64,000 nucleotides of DNA, from positions 62,001 through 126,000 of the forward strand of contig NZ_KB907623.1 in the NCBI RefSeq assembly GCF_000382145.1, read 5' to 3'. Shown here piece by piece: positions 39,339-56,033 of this stretch. Source of the stretch: Psychrobacter lutiphocae DSM 21542 (GTDB lineage Bacteria; Pseudomonadota; Gammaproteobacteria; Pseudomonadales; Moraxellaceae). The position numbers and the translations under genes are program-made. Position 1 is the first letter of the stretch. Every line of letters begins with the position of its first letter. The notes below the pieces were generated by a model, which was not told the DNA's origin, did no database searches, and worked only from the letters and a program-made list of their open reading frames with translations.

Positions 39339-40883
39339 ATGACAAGTTCTCAGCAAAGAGCTGAATTACAACGCCGTATTTGGCAAATCGCTAATGACGT
39401 CCGTGGCTCAGTTGATGGCTGGGATTTTAAACAGTATGTGTTGGGAACACTATTTTACCGCTTTATAAGCGAAAACTTTAGCCAATACATAGAGGCAGGT
39501 GATGATAGCGTTAACTACGCTAGTATGACAGATGAGCAAATTGATGCAGCAGGTATCAAAGACGATGCCATTAAGACCAAAGGCTATTTTATCTATCCAA
39601 GCCAGCTATTTGAGAATATGGTGGCGACTGCCAATACTAATGACGCATTAAATACTGATTTAAAAGCTATTTTTAATGATATTGAAAGCTCTGCCAACGG
39701 CTATCCGTCAGAAGATGATATCAAAGGCTTATTTGCTGATTTTGATACCACCTCTAATCGTTTGGGTAATACAGTAGCGGATAAAAACAAACGCTTAGCG
39801 GCTGTGCTAAAAGGGGTAGCAGATCTAGATTTTGGGCATTTTGGGGATAGTCAAATTGACTTGTTTGGCGATGCTTATGAGTTTTTAATCTCAAATTATG
39901 CTGCTAATGCAGGTAAGTCTGGTGGTGAGTTTTTTACGCCACAAAGTGTGTCGCGTTTGATAGCTAAGCTTGCCTTGCATGGTCAATCAAATGTTAACAA
40001 GATTTATGATCCAGCATCAGGTTCAGGCTCACTGCTGTTGCAAGCCAAAAAGCAGTTTGACGAGCATATCATTGAAGATGGGTTTTTTGGGCAAGAGATT
40101 AACCACACTACCTATAACTTATCGCGTATGAATATGTTTTTGCACAATGTGAATTACGATAAGTTTAATATTGCTTTGGGTGATACGTTGATTAATCCTA
40201 AGTTTGGTGATGATAAGCCGTTTGATGCTATCGTGTCTAATCCACCGTATTCGGTAAAATGGATAGGTAGTGATGACCCGACGCTGATTAATGATGACCG
40301 CTATGCCCCTGCTGGCGTGCTTGCTCCGAAATCCAAAGCGGATTTTGCTTTTGTGCTACATGCATTGAGTTATCTTTCTAGTAAGGGGCGAGCGGCGATT
40401 GTTTGTTTTCCAGGGATATTCTACCGTGGTGGTGCGGAGAAAAAAATCCGCCAGTATTTGGTCGATAATAACTATGTAGAAACGGTGATATCGCTGGCAC
40501 CAAACTTGTTTTTTGGTACATCTATTGCGGTAAATATATTGGTGTTATCGAAGCATAAAACGGACACTACCACCCAGTTTATTGATGCCAGTAAGTTCTT
40601 CAAAAAGGCTACCAATAACAATGAGCTGACCGATGCCCATATTGAGCAGATTATGACGCTATTTGCGGATAAAAAGGCTGTGGATTATCAAGCTATTAAT
40701 GTTGAAAATAGTGAGATTGCTGATAACGACTATAATTTATCGGTAAGTGCTTATGTTGAGGCAGAGGATACCCGAGAGGTGATAGATATTGATGAGCTTA
40801 ATGCCGAGATAAAGAAAACGGTGGCGAATATTGATAGGTTACGTCATGAAATTGATGCAATAGTGGCGGAGATTGAGGCATGA
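39339..40883 (+). CDS. hsdM: Type I restriction-modification DNA methyltransferase subunit
   Basis: Modifies adenine within the sequence selected by HsdS and forms the M2S core. The N-terminal helical domain ([18 protein letters not shown]) precedes the AdoMet motif [14 protein letters not shown] (about residues 223-235). The catalytic motif [10 protein letters not shown] lies at about 300-307, with [10 protein letters not shown] just before motif I. At 514 aa it is full length. AGGAAAAAATC gives the ribosome site. The last four bases overlap hsdS (ATGA), showing translational coupling. Confidence 0.96.
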
Positions 40884-42070
40884 GTCAGTTAGCGTTTATG
40901 CAAAAGCTGTTGCAAGGGGTTGAGGTTGAGTGGAAACCGTTGGGGGAGGTGACGAAATATGAGCAGCCTACTAAATATCGCGTGCAGTCAACCGATTACG
41001 ATGACTCTTTTGCTACTCCCGTTTTAACTGCCGGAAAAACTTTTATATTAGGATTTACAGATGAAATCGATGGTATTTATAAGGCGAAAGTAAGTCCTGT
41101 GATAATTTTTGATGATTTTACTACCGCTAATAAATGGGTGGATTTTGACTTTAAGGTTAAGTCATCTGCAATGAAGATAATAACGTCATCTGATAACTCA
41201 AACTATTCGCTTAGATATATTTATCATTGGTTAAATACATTACCTAGTGGGCTTATTGAGGGTGATCATAAACGTCAATGGATTAGTAATTATAGTAATA
41301 AAAGAATCCCAATCCCACCACTACCTATTCAAGAAGAAATTGTACGAATTTTAGACACACTGACCTCTCTCACCACTGAGCTCACCACTGAGCTCACCAC
41401 TGAGAATATCATACGTAGCAAACAATACAAGTATTATCGTGATAAATTATTAAATTTTTCTGATAAAGAGGTTGAGTGGAAGACGTTGGGTGAGGTGGGT
41501 GAGTTGGTTCGTGGTAGTGGTTTACCAAAATCAGATTTTACAGATTCTGGTATTCCTGCTATTCATTATGGGCAAATTTATACTTATTATGGTACTTTCA
41601 CCATTGAAACTATATCTTTTGTATCAGAAGAAACTGCTAAAAAGTTGAAAAAAGTAGATACAGGTGATGTCGTTGTAACTAATACCAGTGAGAACTTTGA
41701 GGATGTTGGAAAAGCGTTGGTTTATTTAGGAAAGGAACAGGCTGTTACAGGTGGGCATGCAACCATTTTTAAACCGAAAAAAGAAATCATTTTAAGTAAA
41801 TATTTTGCATACTTCACTCAAACCAGCTTTTTTACAAAAGAGAAAAGAAAGTACGCAAAAGGCACTAAAGTTATTGATGTTTCAGCTAGTGATATGGCGA
41901 AAATCAATATCCCAATCCCCCCACTAGAAGAGCAAGCCCGTATTGTCGCTATCTTAGATAAATTCGATACCTTAACAAACTCTATTACTGAAGGGTTACC
42001 CCGTGAGATTGAGTTACGCCAAAAGCAATACGAATATTATCGCGATTTGTTGTTGAGCTTTGAGAAGTAG
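40880..42070 (+). CDS. hsdS: Type I restriction-modification specificity subunit
   Basis: Recognises a bipartite DNA site for the whole type I complex. Two target-recognition domains lie at about 10-150 and 195-350. Each is followed by a conserved helical spacer: [24 protein letters not shown] in the middle and [23 protein letters not shown] at the C-terminus. The central spacer contains three exact copies of LTTE (residues 164-175) coded by 12-bp repeats, the same place where EcoR124-type enzymes carry TAEL repeats that set the recognition spacing. At 396 aa it is normal length. ATG 40880 overlaps the hsdM stop. Confidence 0.94.
41369..41404 (+). repeat. Three perfect in-frame 12-bp repeats in hsdS
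   Basis: CTCACCACTGAG occurs three times without a mismatch (41369-41380, 41381-41392, 41393-41404). Each unit encodes LTTE in the central spacer helix between the two target-recognition domains. Loss or gain of one unit keeps the frame and would change the distance between the two half-sites. Confidence 0.95.
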
Positions 42071-42188: not shown

Positions 42189-43241
42189 ATGCCAAAATCC
42201 AAGCTAAATCAGCTTAGCATTCAAGACCAAACCAGTGAGTTTTTACTCTATACTGCACCCAATGGCAAAATCAAAGTTGAGGTTTTACTTGGTAACGAAA
42301 CAATTTGGCTAACCCAAGAGCGAATGGCTGAGCTTTTTGCGGTTGATCGTACCACTATCTCTAGGCATTTAAAGAATATATTTAACACTAATGAATTGCA
42401 AGAAGCAGTGGTATGTGCAGAAATTGCACATACCACTCCTCACGGTGCAATAGCAGGAAAAACGCAGACAAAACAAGTCAAGTATTACAATTTGGATGCC
42501 ATTATCTCAGTTGGTTATCGGGTTAATTCAGCACAAGCCACCCAGTTTCGTATTTGGGCAACGCAATTAATCAAAGAATACATCATCAAAGGCTTTGCTA
42601 TGGATGATGAGCGTTTAAAAAATGGGCGTTATTTTGGTAAAGATTATTTTAAAGAATTATTAGAACGGGTTCGATCTATTCGAGCCAGTGAAAGACGGAT
42701 ATATCAACAAATTACCGATATTTTTGCCGAATGTAGCATTGATTATGACCCAAAATCCGAAACTACTCGCCTTTTTTATGCCAATGTACAAGACAAATTT
42801 CACTTTGCCATTACAGGGCATACCTCTGCGGAAATTATTTCCTTAAAAGCAGACGCTAGCAAGCCCTTAATGGGTATGAGTACTTATAAAAATGCACCAA
42901 GTGGAAGGGTGCTAAAATCTGACACCGTAATTGCCAAAAACTACTTAACTGAAAAAGAGATTAAGCAATTAGAACGGCTAATCTCTTCTTTTTTTGATTA
43001 TATTGAAGGCGTTATTGAGCGTAGAAATACATTTACCATGCAAGCATTTGCTGAGAGTGTGGACAAGTTTTTAGACTTTAATGAATATAAAATCTTGGAA
43101 GGCTATGGCAAAGTAAAACGCAATACCGCTAAGAAAAAAGCCTATATGGAATATGAGCAATTTAATAAACAACAAAAAATAGAGTCTGATTTTGACCGCG
43201 AAATAAAAAAACTACTGCACAACAAAGAGCCTAAACAATGA
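42189..43241 (+). CDS. rhuM: RhuM-family protein embedded in the type I R-M operon
   Basis: A 350-aa cytosolic protein of the RhuM (virulence-protein-like) family. The N-terminal part has a helix-turn-helix, [24 protein letters not shown] at about 42-65, and [17 protein letters not shown] followed by FRIWATQ is the family hallmark. The C-terminal part is helical and ends in a charged segment, and [15 protein letters not shown] lies in the middle. Function is unknown; members recur between hsdS and hsdR or near toxin-like loci. It ends by 4-bp overlap with hsdR, so it is a true operon member. Confidence 0.9.
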
Positions 43242-46200
43242 TTGACTACACCAAAACCATTGCAGAATCTAATAACTTTATCATATTAGATAAATATACT
43301 AAGCAGCATCAAGTCAGCGAGTCCTATCAAAGTGAATACGACTTAGAAAATGACTTTATTGCCGACCTAGAAAAGCAAGGCTATGAATATGTGAAGGGGC
43401 TAAATAGCAACGACAAAATGCTGGCAAATGTGCGTCAGCAACTGCAAACCCTAAACAATATGAGCTTTAGCGATGCAGAATGGCAACGCTTTGTCGCAGA
43501 GTATCTCGACAAACCTAATGATAGCCTCATCGACAAAACTCGTAAAATCCATGACGACTATGTATATGACTTTGTCTTTGATGATGGGCATATCCAAAAC
43601 ATTCACTTACTAGATAAAAAAGTGACTGCACGCAACAAAGTACAAGTCATCAAGCAGTTTACACAAAAAGGAACACAAAAAAATCGCTATGATGTCACTA
43701 TTTTGGTGAATGGCTTACCACTGGTGCAAGTGGAGTTAAAAAAACGTGGTGTTGCCATTCGAGAAGCCTTTAACCAAGTGCATCGATATAGCAAAGAGAG
43801 CTTTAATAGCGATAATTCTTTATATAAATTTTTGCAAATATTTGTGATCTCTAATGGCACAGATACCCGCTACTTTGCCAACACCACCAAGCGTGACAAA
43901 AACAGCTTTGACTTTACCATGAACTGGGCAAAGTCGGATAACTCATTGATTAAAGACTTAAAAGACTTTACCGCTACTTTTTTTGAAAAAACCACCTTGC
44001 TCAGCGTGTTACTCAAATATTCGGTATTTGATGTCAACGATACCCTGCTCATCATGCGACCCTATCAAATAGCCGCTACCGAACGTATTTTGTGGAAAAT
44101 AAACAGTGCTTACCAGACCAAAAACTGGGGCAAGTTAGAAAGTGGTGGCTTTGTATGGCATACCACAGGCTCTGGTAAAACTTTGACCAGCTTTAAAGCG
44201 GCTCGTATGGCAACCGAGCTTGAGTTTATTGATAAAGTTTTTTTTGTGGTGGATCGTAAAGATTTGGACTACCAAACCATGAAGGAGTATCAAAGGTTTT
44301 CACCTGATAGTGTCAATGGTTCAGACAGCACAGCAGGGTTAAAGCGAAATCTTACAAAAGATGATAATAAAATCATTGTCACCACCATTCAAAAGCTTAA
44401 TAACCTTATGAAAAGTGAAAATGACCTGCCTGCTTATAACCAGCAAGTGGTTTTTATTTTTGATGAATGCCATCGTTCGCAATTTGGTGAAGCACAAAAA
44501 AACCTACAAAGAAAGTTTAAAAAATACTATCAGTTTGGATTTACAGGTACACCAATTTTTGCTGAAAATGCGTTAGGGGCAGATACTACTGCGAGTGTGT
44601 TTGGTCGTGAGCTACATTCATATGTTATCACCGATGCGATCCGTGATGAAAAAGTACTCAAGTTTAAGGTGGACTACAACGATGTACGCCCACAGTTTAA
44701 AGTCATCGAAAACAAAACCGATGAAAAGGAGCTTACTGCATTAGAAACCAAACAAGCATTGCTACACCCTGAGCGTATCAAAGAAATATCGCAATATATT
44801 TTAAATAACTTTCATCAAAAAACGCATCGGTTGCAAGTAGGGGCGAAAGGCTTTAATGCGATGTTTGCCGTCAGTAGTGTCGATGCTGCTAAGCTGTATT
44901 ATGAGACACTGAAAAACTTACAAAAACACAGTAGCAAGCCGTTAAAAATCGCCACCATATTTTCTTATAGTGCCAATGAAATGCAAGATGCAGTGGGTGA
45001 TATTGCTGATGAAACCTTTGAACCAACGGCTATGGATAGTAGTGCCAAAGAATTTTTGAGCTTAGCAATTAATGACTATAATGCTTACTTTAACACCAAC
45101 TATACTGTGGAGAGTAAGGCATTTCAAAACTATTATCGTGATTTGGCAAAACGAGTTAAAAATCAAGACATAGATTTATTGATTGTGGTCGGTATGTTTT
45201 TAACAGGCTTTGATGCCCCAACTTTAAATACCTTATTTGTGGATAAAAACCTACGTTATCACGGCTTGCTGCAAGCATTCTCACGCACCAACCGTATTTA
45301 TAACGCTACCAAAACTTTTGGTAATATCGTCACTTTTCGTAACTTAGAAAAAGCCACCATAGATGCTATTAGACTATTTGGTAATCAAAATACCAAAAAT
45401 GTCGTGCTGGAAAAAAGCTACAAAGAATATATGGAAGGCTTTAGTGACATCGTCACAGGTGAAGCAAGACGTGGTTATGTTGATGTGGTTAATGAGCTAC
45501 AAACTCACTTTGCTAACCCAGATGAGATAGTGACCGAAAAAGACAAAAAAGAATTTGTAAAATTATTTGGCGAATATTTACGTGTTGAAAATATACTACA
45601 AAACTATGATGAATTTGCTGGCTTGCAGGCGTTACAACAGGTGGATATGGCAGACCCTGAAGCTGTCGCTGAATTTAAAGAAAAATATTATCTCACTGAT
45701 GATGACATTGAGGTAATGCAAGCTATCGATATACCAAGTCAGCGAATGATTCAAGATTATCGCTCTACTTATAACGATATTCGTGATTGGTTGCATCGTG
45801 AGAAGTCTGCCGAAGCAAGTCAAAATAGCACTATTGATTGGAATGATGTTGTATTTGAAGTGGATTTATTAAAATCGCAAGAGATTAATCTGGACTATAT
45901 TCTTGAGCTGATTTTTGAACACAATAAGAAAATGAAAAACAAATCTGCTTTGGTAGAAGAGATACGCCGTACTATCCGAGCCAGTATCGGCAATCGAGCC
46001 AAAGAAAGCTTGATAGTCGATTTTATCAATCATACAAATTTGGATGAGATTCAAGATAAAGCAAGCATCATTGAAGCATTTTTCACCTTTGCACAACAAC
46101 AGCAAAAACGTGAAGCACAAGCGTTGATTGCAGAAGAAAACTTAAATGCAGAGGCAGCCAAACGCTATATTCTTACTTCTTTAAAACGCCAATATGCCAG

Positions 46201-46339
46201 TGAAAATGGTACAGATCTTAACGAGATTTTACCCAAAATGAGCCCGCTAAATCCGCAGTATCTAACTAAGAAGCAAAGCGTGTTTGAAAAGATTGCCAAA
46301 TTTGTGGATAAGTTTAAAGGAGTGGGTGGTCAGTTGTAG
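43238..46339 (+). CDS. hsdR: Type I restriction enzyme, R (restriction/translocase) subunit
   Basis: Cleaves unmodified DNA after ATP-driven translocation, in a complex with M2S. The N-terminal endonuclease domain contains [21 protein letters not shown], with the D...E-x-K pattern. The superfamily 2 motor follows with Walker [10 protein letters not shown] (about 307-315), DECH box [10 protein letters not shown] (about 406-415) and TGTPIF. The later motifs include [17 protein letters not shown] and the Q-x-x-x-R-x-x-R-like [10 protein letters not shown]. At 1033 aa it is full length and apparently intact. The 4-bp overlap with rhuM indicates coupling. Confidence 0.96.
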
Positions 46340-54162: not shown

Positions 54163-54774
54163 ATGTCACGTCAATCAATCTTAAAGCCATTATTACTGTC
54201 TGTGGTGCTTAGTAGCTCAGCCGTTGGCCTTTCTGGGTGTGGTTATAATACCTTGCAAGCGCAAGATGAGCAGGTGGCCGCTGCTTGGTCAGAGGTGGTG
54301 AACCAATACCAACGCCGTGCTGACTTGGTACCAAACTTAGTTGAAGTGGTCAAGCAGTATGCCAATCATGAGCAAGAAGTGTTGACCGATGTTGCTGAAG
54401 CACGTTCACGCGCTGGTAGCGTTCAGTTAACTCCTGAGGCACTGAATGACCCACAAGCAATGGAAAACTATCAAGCTGCACAGGCGCAGATGACCAGTGC
54501 GTTGTCACGCTTAATGGCGGTATCTGAGCGTTATCCAGACCTCAAAGCGGATCAGCGCTTTGCTGACTTACAAGCTCAGCTTGAAGGTACCGAAAACCGC
54601 ATCACTGTGGCACGCAATCGCTACATTCAAGAAGTGCAGACTTATAATACCACTGTGCGCCAGTTCCCAACCAACTTAACCGCTAAGGTATTTGGTTTGG
54701 ACGCCAAGCCTAACTTTAGTGTGGATAATGAAAAAGAGATTTCAACTGCGCCAAAGGTTGATTTTGGTGATTAG
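54163..54774 (+). CDS. lemA: LemA-family lipoprotein
   Basis: A 203-aa protein with a signal segment ending in a lipobox VGLSGC (about residues 19-24), then GYNTLQAQDEQV. The helical LemA domain follows, with AWSEVVNQYQRRADLVPNLVEVVKQYANHE as the hallmark and NRITVARNRYIQEVQTYNTTVRQFP near the end. Function is unknown; it is repeatedly found with TPM-domain proteins, as here, and is linked to envelope integrity. A TPM-domain gene follows 59 bp later. TTTGGAGTAATC is the ribosome site. Confidence 0.93.
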   Translation: MSRQSILKPLLLSVVLSSSAVGLSGCGYNTLQAQDEQVAAAWSEVVNQYQRRADLVPNLVEVVKQYANHEQEVLTDVAEARSRAGSVQLTPEALNDPQAMENYQAAQAQMTSALSRLMAVSERYPDLKADQRFADLQAQLEGTENRITVARNRYIQEVQTYNTTVRQFPTNLTAKVFGLDAKPNFSVDNEKEISTAPKVDFGD

Positions 54775-54833
54775 TGATAGGCGCTCAACCAGTCGCTTTA
54801 ATCTAATAGCTTTAACTTAATATAAATGTGGTG

Positions 54834-56033
54834 ATGATGCAGATGCAAAGGTTAAAACATAGCTTATCCGTGACGTTACTTTTAGCAGCCAGTGTGCTTA
54901 CCCCAACTGCCAGCTTGGCGGTAGAAGACACAGCATCATCGCAGCAGATAAATAGCCAAACTCAACAAATGGTAGATCCAAGCGTTGAGGATATGATAGC
55001 CATTACCCGATCTGCTCAACAAAATGAAGCCATTAATGATGCGGTGCTGGGTAATGAGGCGATTCGAGAAGCGCTTCCTAACCCCGATATCGGTATTGCC
55101 ACTGCGGAGGATGCGCCAGAAGCCAGTGCTCAGTCTTCTGGGGCCTCTGGTCAAGCCCAGCCCCGTCAATCCAGTGCGCAAGCGGTAGAAAGTGACAAGC
55201 TGATTTTAAACTCGCCTGTGGTTGATCAGGCCAATATATTTTCGCCACAAGAAAATCAGATATTAAGCCAAAGACTGCGCCATATTTATCAACAAGGCTT
55301 GGCACAAGCAGCACTAGTAACTGTACCCACTACCAATGGGATGAATATCTTTCAATATAGCATGCAGGTGGCTGACCGATGGAAGTTGGGTAATAAAGAC
55401 ACAGATGATGGCTTGCTTATCCTTGTCGCTGTTAATGATCGTAATGTCTACATCTTATCTGGTTATGGACTCGAAGGTGTACTGCCTGATGCTGCACTAA
55501 AGCGTATTATTGATGAGCAAATTACGCCTTCATTTAAGCAAGGCGATTATGCGGGTGGTTTGATACGTGGTATCAATCAAATCGAAACCCGCTTGCAGAC
55601 CGATCCAGAGATATTGGCGCAGTCTGATGCCTTAGCCAAAGAGCGCAGTCAAGCACAAATGGATGCCGATGCGCCCTCATTATTTGGTACTTTCTTAATA
55701 GCCTTAATTTTTGGTTTGTTTTTGACCTCAGTATTTGGGCGTATTTTAGGCTCTTTGGTGGCGACAGGTGGCTTTGTGGTGATGTCGTTGTCCAGTGGCT
55801 CTGGACTGATTGCCACTTTGTTTTTAGCGGTGTTTTTGTGGCTGTTTTTGATATCACGTGGCGGTGGTAGCAGCGGTCGAGGTGGCCGAGGCGGTGGTGG
55901 CCGTGTGGTGGTCTTCCCAAGTAGTGGTGGCGGCTTTGGTGGCGGTGGTTTTGGAGGTGGCGGCTTCGGCGGCGGTGGTTTTGGTGGCGGCGGCGGTGGC
56001 TTCGGTGGTGGTGGCGCTGGCGGATCTTGGTAA
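54834..56033 (+). CDS. TPM-domain membrane protein with glycine-rich tail (YgcG family)
   Basis: About 399 aa. A signal sequence (residues about 1-25) is followed by a low-complexity linker, then the TPM domain near 130-265 with VDQANIFSPQENQILSQRL at its start and DDGLLILVAVNDRNVYILSGYGLEG in its core. Two hydrophobic helices lie near 283-340, and the C-terminus is an extreme glycine repeat (GGGFGGGGF-like, about 55 residues). The start is uncertain among GTG 54828/54831 and ATG 54834/54837/54843; 54834 is used. It works with LemA in families of this type; the substrate is not known. Confidence 0.86.
   Translation: MMQMQRLKHSLSVTLLLAASVLTPTASLAVEDTASSQQINSQTQQMVDPSVEDMIAITRSAQQNEAINDAVLGNEAIREALPNPDIGIATAEDAPEASAQSSGASGQAQPRQSSAQAVESDKLILNSPVVDQANIFSPQENQILSQRLRHIYQQGLAQAALVTVPTTNGMNIFQYSMQVADRWKLGNKDTDDGLLILVAVNDRNVYILSGYGLEGVLPDAALKRIIDEQITPSFKQGDYAGGLIRGINQIETRLQTDPEILAQSDALAKERSQAQMDADAPSLFGTFLIALIFGLFLTSVFGRILGSLVATGGFVVMSLSSGSGLIATLFLAVFLWLFLISRGGGSSGRGGRGGGGRVVVFPSSGGGFGGGGFGGGGFGGGGFGGGGGGFGGGGAGGSW

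Follow-up and report, generated by a model that had tools for sequence, protein, structure and literature searches.

Type IC restriction-modification enzymes usually carry central tandem tetrapeptides in the specificity subunit HsdS, for example TAEL, LEAT, SEAL and TSEL (PMC10030836, excerpt). In the EcoR124 enzymes, two or three copies of TAEL correspond to a gap of N6 or N7 in the recognition site, and the change in copy number is credited to unequal crossing-over, not to high-rate slippage (PMC3874165, section 25). The first target-recognition domain (TRD1) of EcoR124 reads GAA (PMC3874165, Table 2, excerpt). In NgoAV of Neisseria gonorrhoeae, also type IC, the excerpted text of PMC6789123 relates one and two copies of LEAT to GACN6TGC and GACN7TGC, respectively, and describes one strain with a single LEAT and full-length genes in which the motif is unmethylated. 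Since tetrapeptide repeats of type IC enzymes are in print, the repeat and its role are already known. The mechanism has been known since the 1980s and the locus reported here is a fresh example. It lies in a stretch of 64,000 nucleotides from Psychrobacter lutiphocae DSM 21542 (the window, in whose positions all coordinates are given) and provides a clear EcoR124-like allele, for which a half-site and a gap are predicted and can be checked. Among the papers retrieved in one search on Psychrobacter and hsdS, none mentions hsdS repeats in its title or in the opening part of its abstract.

The genes hsdM, hsdS and hsdR are all present with open frames and form one locus on the plus strand, together with a rhuM-family gene. 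The methyltransferase subunit is encoded by hsdM (39339–40883; TIGR00497, PF02384, PF12161), the end of which overlaps the start of hsdS by 4 bp. The specificity subunit encoded by hsdS (40880–42070; PF01420, PADLOC Specificity_I) comprises 396 residues. The restriction/translocation subunit (hsdR, 43238–46339; TIGR00348) contains the EcoR124-type C-terminal domain (PF12008, E = 7e-72). The rhuM-family gene (42189–43241; PF13310) is located between hsdS and hsdR, which distinguishes the locus from that of EcoR124. This gene is a candidate defence gene (PADLOC PDC-S05) and shares 4 bp with the start of hsdR. A similar frame, assessed by eye on the translated sequence, follows hsdS in locus L005 of genome G039 (loci and genomes of the survey carry L and G numbers, respectively).

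HsdS of the window aligns with EcoR124 HsdS (7bst_A) over residues 1–396 (E = 4e-118). The AlphaFold2 model, calculated with 41 sequences, has a mean pLDDT of 86.9 and a pTM of 0.65; the predicted arrangement of its domains is thus of moderate confidence. The best match of the model in the PDB is EcoR124I (Foldseek, E = 5.4e-28, TM-scores 0.68/0.70). The N-terminal arm and TRD1 (40880–41320) show 71% identity with EcoR124 across 146 residues, and the first half-site is therefore probably GAA. TRD1 is followed in the model by the connecting helix D1 (residues 148–190, 41321–41449), which contains the repeat array, by TRD2 (41450–41923) and by a second connecting helix, D2 (residues 349–392, 41924–42055). 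By sequence comparison TRD2 is unlike that of EcoR124, and none of the solved structures has a TRD2 close to it. The tandem-repeat search reported no repeat in D2 of the window.

The features expected of a type IC system are present, namely full-length HsdS homology, the EcoR124-type C-terminus of HsdR and central tetrapeptide repeats. Very probably, the locus is an EcoR124-like type IC system in which the repeat sets the spacing of the TRDs and copies change in steps of 12 bp. A preliminary description of this DNA had proposed relatedness to EcoR124 and an equivalent position of the repeat; both are borne out by the homology, the identity in TRD1 and the position within D1.

Three tandem copies of CTCACCACTGAG are found at 41369–41404 (period 12, 3.0 copies, match 100%). 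The array begins with codon 164 of hsdS and reads LTTE three times in frame (41369–41380, 41381–41392 and 41393–41404). The sequence and the tandem-repeat search agree with the preliminary description in this point, and its placement of the array in the spacer between the TRDs is confirmed by the AlphaFold2 model, where residues 148–190 form one unbroken helix. The third unit is followed by AATATCATA (41405–41413, NII), which replaces the usual tail led by Leu. The tail opens with Asn in the window and with Leu in 149 of the 154 arrays surveyed; this Asn could change the packing of the helix and hence the gap.

At a lag of 12, the longest exact run in the window is 24 bases, whereas 30 first-order Markov simulations gave 7–10 bases. 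The window contains further tandem repeats of similar strength (lag 17, 24 bases; lag 24, 23 bases; lag 21, 21 bases), so that perfection of a short repeat is not unusual there by itself. Given the peptide, the probability that three LTTE units share all their codons by chance is ~1.6e-4, based on the codon usage of nine window genes including hsdS. CTC accounts for 5% of the Leu codons in these genes, yet it serves all three units. The identity of the units at the DNA level thus argues for unit copying, beyond protein constraint alone.

The span of D1 from ILD to RSKQY comprises 19 residues in the window and 15 in the two-unit EcoR124 chain. This is the length expected of the three-unit EcoR124II, so a longer, EcoR124II-like gap is predicted. 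EcoR124I and EcoR124II share with the window the full-length homology, the closely similar TRD1 region and the tetrapeptide repeats in D1; the window differs by its TRD2, by LTTE instead of TAEL and by the tail NII instead of LNM. NgoAV resembles the window in its central HsdS tetrapeptide, the LEAT count of which goes with a one-base change of the gap according to the excerpt of PMC6789123. In NgoAV, however, the length of a G homopolymer truncates HsdS, whereas the longest homopolymer in hsdS of the window has 6 bases. Phase-variable hsdS and hsdM genes driven by simple sequence repeats, as described in an excerpt of PMC7394358, likewise contain a tandem repeat within a restriction-modification gene, but their tracts shift the frame and thereby switch expression or truncate the product. 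The 12-bp unit keeps the frame, so spacing alone can change. The hsd loci of Psychrobacter plasmids (for example pPSYFG1 and pA17P2) are members of the same hsd family, and their D1 arrays have two or three units; they differ in being plasmid-borne and in having other TRDs and LTAE units, mostly CTTACAGCAGAA.

On the EcoR124 precedent, the TRDs would be kept apart by two antiparallel helices, with the LTTE units forming turns of the first. One unit would add about one helical turn, so that two units would give the shorter gap (EcoR124I) and three the longer one (EcoR124II). The allele of the window would methylate a split site with GAA as its first half and with an interval of 8 bp between the methylated bases, as in other three-unit enzymes; one unit fewer or more would shift the gap by one base. 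Over evolutionary time, the copy number would change in 12-bp steps by misalignment, either in unequal crossing-over or in replication slippage. For this locus, GAA as the half-site, the length of the gap, the way in which copies change and the influence of their number on specificity are all inferred.

Copy number was compared in 154 distinct D1 arrays from relatives, genome contigs, viral contigs and the window, with only D1 lengths of 11, 15, 19, 23 and 27 residues sought. One, two, three and four units are present in 5, 87, 61 and 1 of these arrays, respectively. The preliminary description had named a uniform count of three units in all relatives as an observation that would speak against it; counts of one to four were found. 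In a separate search, which admitted 8–32 residues between ILD and R-x-K-Q-Y, 102 of the 110 matches showed a D1 length of 11, 15, 19 or 23. Because it admitted all these lengths, unlike the fixed-length count, this search demonstrates that D1 is quantised in steps of four residues. Seven of the eight exceptions were taken for chance matches that lie outside D1, and the remaining one (L077) is a D1 of 19 residues that the pattern ended one residue too soon. Two matches among the 102 quantised ones (L115 and L140) do not represent D1, and the real 15-residue D1 of L134 landed among the odd-length matches.

Within the genus of the window and the Psychrobacter plasmids, two, three and four units are present in 16, 6 and 1 of 23 arrays. 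These were drawn from 34 loci, the rest being duplicates or lacking a D1 of the sought form. One of the plasmid records (L213) is an older version of another (L207), the two-unit array of which was treated as a duplicate of that in L115; leaving L213 out gives 15, 6 and 1 of 22. At least one CTTACAGCAGAA unit is found in 17 of the 23 arrays (list read by eye). The sole four-unit array among the 154 is that of L112 (G071:C23, same genus), which consists of four perfect LTAE units; the reading frame upstream is short (62 residues). By extrapolation, its gap would be longer still than that of the three-unit class. TRD2 of L112 is 99.5% identical to that of L007, which has two units. In the same genus, the hsd locus of G028 is ~94% identical to Psychrobacter plasmids over three quarters of its length, and G084 (L115) shares D1 and TRD2 with the Psychrobacter raelei plasmid record L213 (TRD2 100% identical).

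The closest full-length relative found is L032 in a Weeksellaceae metagenome-assembled genome (JAKLPS010000001.1). Both TRDs are as in the window (79% and 75% identity), but D1 contains two LTAE units instead of three LTTE units. L033, with TRDs 74% and 62% identical to those of the window, has three units. L152 and L199 are identical over ~1.5 kb without a mismatch and differ solely by one 12-bp unit (three and two units, respectively). When both TRDs are at least 70% identical, 10 pairs have equal and 13 have different unit numbers; at a threshold of at least 95%, two of four pairs have equal and two have different numbers. These pair counts handle related genes as if they were independent. 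Taken together, L152/L199, L032 and the pair counts indicate that the unit number changes in whole units and independently of the TRDs. As pairs of similar TRDs are found in combination with more than one unit number, the length of the gap evolves separately from the choice of half-sites.

Among the 60 matches listed out of 1395 records for the full gene of L152, all are alignments joined from two to four pieces with 88–90% identity; outside these 60, 10 of the 1395 records match at 99% identity or more. The four matches of this gene in phage records cover at most 31%. With an EcoR124-like query against complete Escherichia coli genomes, the array has equal length in 24 cases, is one base longer in one and exactly 12 bases shorter in 29. 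This tally comprises the 54 single-piece alignments spanning the array among the 60 matches listed out of 1356 records; six rows were left out (five joined from two pieces and one not spanning the array). As its TRDs are mixed, the tally is not a test of switching within one allele, but both length forms occur.

TRDs have also changed places. The TRD2 type of the window occupies the TRD1 position, with ~69–82% identity, in nine loci (L006, L089, L092, L093, L099, L102, L104, L109 and L131), and its TRD1 occurs as TRD2 in L132. The same TRD is thus found in different positions of different HsdS subunits, which shows that TRDs moved between positions. A frame of 191 residues in L133 (G187:C1) has a TRD1 like that of the window (76%) and, immediately after it, the C-terminal helix (92%). 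From its sequence, this frame looks like a half-size HsdS of the NgoAV type.

The unit sequence of the window is absent from all other arrays of the 154. Of 348 family genomes, only that of the window contains its two-unit DNA when up to two mismatches are allowed, and an exact scan of the viral contigs gave no match. No direct allele with another copy number is thus known among these arrays and genomes. The proposal that copy number changes in this strain or its relatives therefore stands in part: relatives vary in exact 12-bp steps, as seen in the 23 arrays of the genus and plasmids and in the two units of L032. For this strain itself, an ability to switch specificity would be plausible; an array of three units is short.

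The arrays carry a record of turnover in their codons. In 185 pairs of neighbouring units with the same peptide, the codon is the same at 729 of 740 positions, compared with 260.9 expected from local codon usage. The corresponding z of 37.5 treats related genes as independent, and the raw counts are relied upon instead. Among 149 arrays with at least two units, 115 are wholly identical in DNA; perfect identity is thus the ordinary state of EcoR124-like arrays. Across the 154 arrays there are 64 distinct unit sequences, and the LTTE peptide occurs in 13 arrays. The arrays look like products of concerted evolution, refreshed by the gain and loss of units, and homogenisation of codons within an array is the mark of such repeated turnover.

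Structural constraint offers another explanation of the array. The coiled-coil sequence would be selected for helix packing, with a recent duplication and a count that is fixed in the lineage. The L..E pattern is present in nearly every D1 found and D2 keeps its length wherever it was read, as such an explanation would have it. Selection on the protein, however, leaves the identity of 729 of 740 codons unexplained, as it does the exact unit step between alleles as close as L152 and L199; these two observations require turnover of whole units. Structural constraint as the sole cause is therefore a less probable reading, to be given perhaps a minor share of belief. The strain may nevertheless now be fixed at three units.

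The constancy of D2 bears on how the protein tolerates an additional unit. Loenen et al. 2013 asked how the change in helix register is accommodated (PMC3874165, section 25). In the survey, D2 comprises 19 residues wherever it was read, across one to four units in D1. In the 154 arrays, this length was read directly in 132; in 12 the pattern set in at an LD further upstream and gave 29 residues with the usual 19 inside, and 10 were unmeasured. In the search with 8–32 residues for D1, D2 has 19 residues in 99 of 100 cases and 18 in one (L042), where the pattern was cut one residue early and the other reading gives 19. Since D2 stays at 19 residues whatever the number of units in D1, no change in the length of D2 accompanies that in D1. 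Judging from these sequences, nature does not seem to use length compensation in the second helix. The change of D1 by whole units with constant D2, the homogenised codons within arrays and the separate evolution of gap length and half-sites make the family survey of wider use than the single locus; the point on D2 was left open by Loenen et al. 2013 (PMC3874165).

Active phase variation is the stronger form of the switching proposal. The strain would then be a mixture of cells with two, three or four units, and these alleles would change into one another at a frequency high enough for the methylome of the population to be altered. Three identical units, the exact 12-bp difference between the otherwise identical alleles of L152 and L199, and the occurrence of two, three and four units within one genus and its plasmids are compatible with it. 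However, 3 x 12 bp is short compared with the 7–16 units of tetranucleotide tracts in or near hsdS that were encountered in the same survey, and same-allele pairs are few, with the four pairs at 95% TRD identity or more split evenly between equal and different counts. Active phase variation of this kind is unlikely. The term "slippage-prone" in the preliminary description overstates the case: three units are common (61 of 154 arrays), arrays made up wholly of identical units prevail (115 of 149) and the review invokes unequal crossing-over (PMC3874165). If alleles of two, three and four units did coexist in a clonal population, which is similarly doubtful, it would constitute a gap-length phasevarion, in which one restriction-modification system methylates sites of the type GAA-N6/7/8 in different cells and is never off.

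That the array is due to chance or to an artefact of the assembly, a draft of 78 contigs, is rejected as next to impossible on the basis of the codon sharing and the lag-12 run (24 bases, at most 10 in 30 simulations), given also that the array occupies a short stretch of 36 bp in frame and that homologues carry such an array in the corresponding position.

The tetranucleotide tracts (CAAG, GCAA, GACA and ACAG, 7–16 units) were observed in loci of viral contigs (L164, L168, L169, L179, L194, L197, L202 and L204). They are located 105–719 bases past the start of D1, inside hsdS or near its 3' end. By their sequence they are possible candidates for frame switching in genes that also bear 12-bp spacer arrays.

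Elsewhere in the window, an open reading frame of 401 residues (54828–56033) has a repetitive, Gly-rich C-terminus (GGGGFGGGGFGG...), with DNA repeats at 55924–56021. It adjoins an open reading frame at 54163–54774, the product of which is presumably LemA-like.
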